Assembly (NCBI RefSeq): GCF_001280255.1
Contig: NZ_LHCI01000106.1
Coordinates: 1,050,508-1,114,507, forward strand
DNA: 64,000 nt
Source: Thermus aquaticus
GTDB lineage: Bacteria > Deinococcota > Deinococci > Deinococcales > Thermaceae
Reading direction: 5' to 3'
The notes beneath the pieces are model-generated. The model saw nothing but the letters and a program-made list of their open reading frames with translations. It was not told the origin of the DNA and made no database searches. Position 1 is the first letter of the stretch. Every line of letters starts with the position of its first letter. The translations under genes and the position numbers were made by a program. This document shows positions 45,794 to 46,558 of this stretch, piece by piece.

Positions 45794-45840
45794 ACTGCCT
45801 CCTCCATCAAGGCTAGGAAGAAAGGATGAGCCTATCATGA

Positions 45841-45863
45841 AAAGACCCCGGGCTCCCCGGGGC
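45841..45863 (-). terminator. terminator after speD
   Basis: CCCCGGG, three-base loop, CCCGGGG; on the minus strand TCTTTTC follows. It sits 15 bp past the speD stop codon and upstream of the ABC operon. Confidence 0.8.
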
Positions 45864-45877
45864 CTAAAGGGGCGGGC

Positions 45878-46312
45878 TCAGCCCACCCGGGCTTCCAGGT
45901 ACTCCCGCTCCCCCAGGACGATCTTGCGGGCCAGCTCGGGGTCCTTGGGGAACTCCTTGCCGCGGTGGATCATGTGGGTCTCGTAGCGACCGATCTCAAA
46001 GGTCTCGGCCAGCCTCCGCAGGGCTTTGCCCATGTCAAAGGCCTTGCAGGAGAAAATGTCAATGGAGAGGAAGCGCTTCTTGGGGAAGGTGTGGATGGCG
46101 ATGTGACTCTCGGCGATGATCACCACCCCGGTCACGCCGTCTTCCCCACCCGGGCCGTAGCTGTAGACGAAGGGGGGAAGCACCTTGGTCATCTCCATCT
46201 CCTCGGGGAGCTCGTCCAGAACCCGCCGGACCAGCTCGGCGTCCCGGAGCTTCTCGGGATTGGCGTCGTAGCCGTCAATCATCAGATGCGGACCGAATCC
46301 GAAGAGTTCCAC
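45878..46312 (-). CDS. speD: S-adenosylmethionine decarboxylase-family proenzyme
   Basis: Pyruvoyl enzyme of polyamine synthesis that cleaves itself to form the cofactor. The 144-residue protein has the processing site in IIAESHIAIHTFPKKRFLSIDIFSCKAFD; the serine of ESH becomes the pyruvoyl group. Some SpeD relatives decarboxylate arginine or ornithine instead, so the substrate is not certain. I prefer the GTG at 46312 because GGAGG precedes it by eight bases; a GTG at 46321 would overlap that site. The promoter is exceptional (46366-46394). Confidence 0.85.
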   Translation of the reverse strand: MELFGFGPHLMIDGYDANPEKLRDAELVRRVLDELPEEMEMTKVLPPFVYSYGPGGEDGVTGVVIIAESHIAIHTFPKKRFLSIDIFSCKAFDMGKALRRLAETFEIGRYETHMIHRGKEFPKDPELARKIVLGEREYLEARVG

Positions 46313-46365
46313 CGTGACCACCTCCTTCCCGTGCCCCCCGGGGTATTCCCTGCGGCACGCCCCCC

Positions 46366-46394
46366 ATTATGCCCCCCCCTCCCCCCCCTGTCAA
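46366..46394 (-). promoter_or_regulatory. speD promoter with a poly-G spacer
   Basis: On the minus strand TTGACA (46389-46394) and CATAAT (46366-46371) are separated by exactly 17 bp consisting of eight G, one A, eight G. The hexamers are near consensus. The leader to the GTG is about 53 nt. Confidence 0.85.
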
Positions 46395-46558
46395 TACCTT
46401 GTCCTGGCGCGGGAATCCCCCGCCTCTCACCCCGGGGGGCATCCCCCGGGGGAGGGGGGTGGGGGGGTCCTGGAGCTTTTTCCCTCCCCGTGCCCGATGT
46501 ATACGGGGATGGGGTATAAGGGGGGCATCTGGTCCTTGAGGAACGCTTTTCCCCGGGT

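Follow-up and report, generated by a model that had tools for sequence, protein, structure and literature searches.

The speD locus and its promoter

The window analysed here is a stretch of 64,000 nucleotides of the Thermus aquaticus genome, in which the minus strand at 45878–46312 carries speD, encoding S-adenosylmethionine (AdoMet) decarboxylase (TIGR03330, 83.1 bits against a curated cut-off of 75.65). The gene is 88–94% identical in 25 other Thermus species. Its start is likely the GTG at 46312, 8 nt past a Shine-Dalgarno sequence, AAGGAGG, that is read directly on the minus strand at 46321–46327; an alternative in-frame GTG at 46321 overlaps this sequence. Because the divergent neighbours of speD encode succinate dehydrogenase membrane subunits, and because a terminator-like hairpin, CCCCGGGGAGCCCGGGGTCTTTT, can be read directly 3' of the gene (45840–45862, minus strand; likely an intrinsic terminator), speD is probably monocistronic.

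Direct reading of the minus strand upstream of speD gives a -35 element, TTGACA, at 46389–46394, a 17-bp spacer, GGGGGGGGAGGGGGGGG, at 46372–46388, a -10 element, CATAAT, at 46366–46371 and a discriminator, GGGGGG, at 46360–46365. The spacer consists of eight G, a single A at position 46380 and eight further G, exactly as the preliminary description of this DNA had stated. With 11 of 12 hexamer matches and 17-bp spacing upstream of a gene, all kept in 26 of 26 Thermus species, the site is a sigma-A-type core promoter. It is the sole promoter-like site between 45000 and 48000, where shuffled sequences lead one to expect 0.2. The earlier assignment of the site as the promoter of speD is borne out. 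Transcription would be expected to start at the end of the discriminator or just past it.

Genome-wide statements for T. aquaticus are based on pattern searches. The full 29-mer, allowing up to three mismatches, has one occurrence in the 2.25 Mb genome and none in a reversed control. The general pattern TTGACA-N17-TATAAT, with up to two mismatches, has 44 genome matches against 2 in the reversed control, and this promoter class is therefore real in this genome; a near-pure G tract is absent from the other 43 of these 44 spacers. A coding role for the G tract was ruled out, since the upstream portion of any overlapping frame is unconserved. Further upstream, at approximately 46400–46425 on the minus strand (about 10–35 nt 5' of the -35 element), many Thermus species have a partly palindromic GGCGGGCTTTTCCCGCC-like stretch, which is perhaps a regulator site.

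Between the discriminator and the Shine-Dalgarno sequence lies a leader hairpin, CGTGCC...ATACCCCGGGGGGCACG (46330–46359, minus strand), which would probably lie at the 5' end of the mRNA or close to it. Its stem is invariant in Thermus and in the sister genus, variation being confined to the loop-side G run, and hence there is no covariation signal to score within Thermus. Folding energies range from -7.8 to -11.5 kcal/mol at 70 °C, and at 37 °C the energy is not significantly better than that of shuffled sequences. A search of Rfam with six speD leaders returned nothing close to a gathering score, and the weak hits listed include no leader or riboswitch family. The leaders of other Thermaceae differ and are also structured-looking; Meiothermus has a well-conserved one of its own.

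Conservation of the spacer within Thermus

With one genome compared per species, speD was matched in 26 of 27 Thermus genomes; the one genome that gave no match is a 65%-complete assembly. All 26 have a common upstream module, comprising the invariant TTGACA, a spacer of G7-8 A G7-8, the -10 element (CATAAT in 25 species, GATAAT in one), the unchanged GGGGGG discriminator, the hairpin and AAGGAGG. The central A divides two runs of seven or eight G in every species; 18 species have the exact 17-bp G8AG8 spacer and three have an extra C within it. Beyond about 35 nt 5' of the -35 element, Thermus upstream sequence is barely alignable. The preliminary description had named a non-G spacer in sister strains as an observation that would tell against its reading, and none was found: the G tract is universal across the 26 species.

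Orthologous promoters of three other genes from the same genomes (solute-binding protein, gltB and hsp20) formed a comparison set. In pairwise comparison the speD spacers are on average 95% identical, against 44% for the solute-binding protein gene, 61% for gltB and 69% for hsp20. On a genus tree of the 26 species, built from speD and gltB coding DNA, 16 of the 17 speD spacer columns have no substitution; gltB and hsp20 have 4.5 and 4.7 changes per spacer column respectively, and fourfold sites have 2.3–2.8 changes each, 26–29% of them being invariant. If columns were independent, the chance of 16 invariant columns would be about 1e-9, a figure that is illustrative only, as tract columns mutate non-independently. 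In the comparison promoters the hexamers are mostly retained and the spacers drift. The sequence and length of the speD spacer are thus far more conserved than those of the other Thermus promoter spacers.

The speD hexamers stand 17 bp apart in 21 species and 16 bp apart in five, and never 15 or 18 bp. At least eight separate tip-level changes of length or composition occur among the 26 species, mostly in run length, and five tip changes lead to 16-bp spacing. In three lineages (G012, G008 and G015) one run is shorter but an additional C adjoins the -10 element, so that 17 bp is restored or kept. The frequency of these changes, together with the 16 unsubstituted columns, agrees with the slippage-prone tract that had been proposed earlier; the speD tract undergoes slippage more often than substitution, and its spacing is held by selection. 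With length changes seen at the tips only, confined to 16–17 bp and compensated with a C in three lineages, strong purifying selection acts on both tract and spacing, and phase variation is not evident.

Relatives outside Thermus

A search of 111 genomes from the phylum matched the G-tract promoter pattern in Thermus only. TTGACA is retained in the other listed Thermaceae orthologs and CATAAT in nearly all non-Thermus Thermaceae orthologs, and most non-Thermus Thermaceae genomes have a perfect TTGACA-N17-YATAAT at speD; the few other perfect matches to this pattern in those genomes include none with a G or C tract. The sister genus has the spacer GGGGGGTAGAGGGGGGG (G6-TAGA-G7), with discriminator and hairpin as in Thermus. 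Two further Thermaceae genera have C-tract spacers, CCCCTACCCCCCCTCCC and CCCCACCCCCCCGGCCC, and Meiothermus spacers range from C tracts (CCCACCCCCCCCTACCC) to tract-free sequences (TTCTGGATCCTCGAGCC and similar), the C-tract relatives sharing the TTGACA and CATAAT hexamers and their spacing. This swap of strand sense between fixed hexamers fits a property of the double helix more easily than it fits a base-specific operator. Since some Meiothermus are without any tract, the tract does not appear to be essential family-wide. IMG/VR matches to TTGACAG8AG6 (L202, L203) are on unrelated phage contigs with no speD and no -10 element at the right distance, and were taken as chance.

Comparison with known promoters

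The TTGACA/C, 17-bp spacer and TATAAT-like -10 element of ordinary Thermus sigma-A promoters such as gltB and hsp20 are as at speD, but their spacers diverge at most positions and keep short motifs only. As at speD, a G homopolymer between the -35 and -10 elements makes up much of the spacer in Neisseria meningitidis porA and Treponema pallidum tp0126, where 17 bp is optimal (PMC7864442). Those tracts are variable within strains and control surface proteins, whereas the speD tract is split by an A, is conserved genus-wide, varies by 1 bp only and precedes a core metabolic gene. N. meningitidis opc has a poly-C tract in or near its core promoter, which recalls the C tracts upstream of speD in Thermaceae other than Thermus. 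The opc gene, however, undergoes phase variation, with a tract reported to span the -35 region (PMC7864442), whereas in the Thermaceae both hexamers flanking the C tract are intact. We found no literature on the Thermus speD promoter itself in the open literature, most subscription journals being outside coverage.

The preliminary description had suggested a phase-variable spacer, in which slippage would toggle speD expression between cells. Run-length changes do recur between close species, and porA and tp0126 provide the precedent (PMC7864442); nevertheless, neither an uninterrupted homopolymer nor a wide range of lengths that includes promoter-off lengths, as in those two genes, is seen at speD among the 26 species. 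The A conserved in 26 of 26 species interrupts the tract and should lower slippage, lengths between species are just 16 or 17 bp, and in three lineages an additional C compensates for a shortened run. A contingency switch should show a broader spread of lengths, some of them switching the promoter off, and is therefore disfavoured. Contingency loci are, moreover, mostly surface antigens, and T. thermophilus requires speD1 to grow above 75 °C, so that switching the gene off would carry a cost; in that species, mutants in speD1 or speB are without long and branched polyamines and above 75 °C grow only with added polyamines (PMC6418473). The phase-variation reading of the spacer is unlikely, and we give it very little credence. 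Because the unbroken tract and wide length range of the porA/tp0126 type are not seen in these species, the speD promoter may be classed as a homopolymer-spacer promoter that is conserved rather than contingent. While G homopolymer spacers are known as phase-variation devices, genus-wide near-constancy here points to a structural promoter role.

Interpretation of the conserved spacer

On the comparative evidence, a structural or regulatory role for the tract is likely. The explanation that we prefer, with a probability of roughly one half, is that speD has a sigma-A promoter whose 17-bp G.C homopolymer spacer is kept by purifying selection for DNA structure and length. G.C homopolymers tend towards A-like geometry, have a twist unlike that of mixed DNA and are good binders of polyamines. 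Since transcripts from the speD promoter do not include the tract, and since the tract tolerates a swap of strand, the property under selection would be one of the double helix, namely a G.C tract that is stiff, under-wound or A-like and has the potential to form a quadruplex. The form of this helix would govern the alignment of the -35 and -10 elements by sigma-A RNA polymerase and the opening of the DNA. With less confidence, speD output might thereby respond to polyamine load, temperature and supercoiling, so making polyamine synthesis homeostatic. In E. coli, spacer sequence at fixed length shifts promoter strength almost 10-fold and affects sensitivity to supercoiling (PMC8695583); one modelling study assigns sequence-dependent twist a modest effect relative to spacer length (PMC9303308), which counts against a structural reading.

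Near base-resolution conservation, central A included, is also what one might see if a dedicated regulator protein bound the G tract between the hexamers and repressed or activated speD, and the single site per genome would suit such a regulator; a G-tract-binding protein would give an equal conservation pattern. The tract, however, is mirror-symmetric rather than dyad, and its run lengths and strand sense vary among relatives while the hexamers are fixed. Operators seldom behave in this way, and we know of no candidate protein. We regard an operator as possible though unlikely. We think it unlikely too that the G strand forms a quadruplex of three layers (GGG-GG-GGG-A-GGG-GG-GGG), stabilised by K+ or polyamines, that would block or remodel the promoter, and here our doubt is stronger. 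Quadruplex potential, raised in the preliminary description, stands as a motif: four runs of at least three G with loops of 1–7 are present in 26 of 26 Thermus spacers and in 0 of 72 control spacers, six non-Thermus orthologs fit the motif on the template strand, and folding with RNA parameters predicts the structure even at 70 °C, RNA energies being rough and indicative only. Yet any G8AG8 satisfies the motif automatically, many relatives fail it altogether, and the sister genus spacer does not fit it by itself, so that the fourth run must come from the discriminator; a duplex so GC-rich would also compete with folding. In the Deinococcales, short-loop quadruplex motifs lie next to start sites, as at speD, but there the enrichment extends over the genome and concerns the template strand (PMC6200779), whereas the speD motif occupies one locus per genome and the non-template strand in Thermus. 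In the Thermales no enrichment of such motifs is seen at start sites, and two long-looped examples that were tested were unfolded; G-rich motifs of this order were reported as randomly placed, the authors adding that non-folding need not hold for all (PMC6200779). Published work treats Thermales G-rich motifs as incidental, and speD would be a single, conserved counter-example in a promoter core.

It is also conceivable, although decidedly doubtful, that the G.C tract is itself a polyamine sensor, to which the long and branched polyamines of Thermus bind and so lower speD transcription. Binding would drive the tract into an unproductive form, be it A-like, quadruplex or other, and, if this were true, the end products of a pathway would act on the promoter DNA of the gene for its key aminopropyl-donor enzyme with neither protein nor riboswitch. 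Polyamine feedback on speD is a guess from gene function. The products of the speD pathway are themselves DNA-binding polycations, and the locus would suit a test of control by DNA structure.

Finally, the tract might have no special function, being GC-rich filler that slippage has homogenised in a GC-rich genome, where G-rich spacers such as GGGGAAGGGGTTGGGGA occur elsewhere. This is disfavoured and, in our estimation, very improbable: elsewhere in these genomes spacers drift without such constraint, the G-rich GGGGAAGGGGTTGGGGA among them, and slippage cannot preserve a single central A flanked by seven or eight G in every species.

Other promoters in the Thermaceae

The GGGGAAGGGGTTGGGGA spacer belongs to a perfect promoter, TTGACA-GGGGAAGGGGTTGGGGA-TATAAT, upstream of the solute-binding protein gene of T. 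aquaticus (G000:C106:549418-549446; L049, L092). The spacer is unconserved, and the orthologous leaders share an operator-looking TGGAAAAGCTTCCA dyad. The open reading frame that follows has 115 amino acids here against about 430–450 in most relatives, reflecting a frameshift or an assembly error. In Meiothermus there is a recurrent promoter type, TTGACAATATTACACTCAAGTTT-YATAAT, that has a conserved spacer with a CTCAA core and occurs up to a few times per genome (for example, at G057:C1:446954, G065:C1:43103 and G070:C23:39352).
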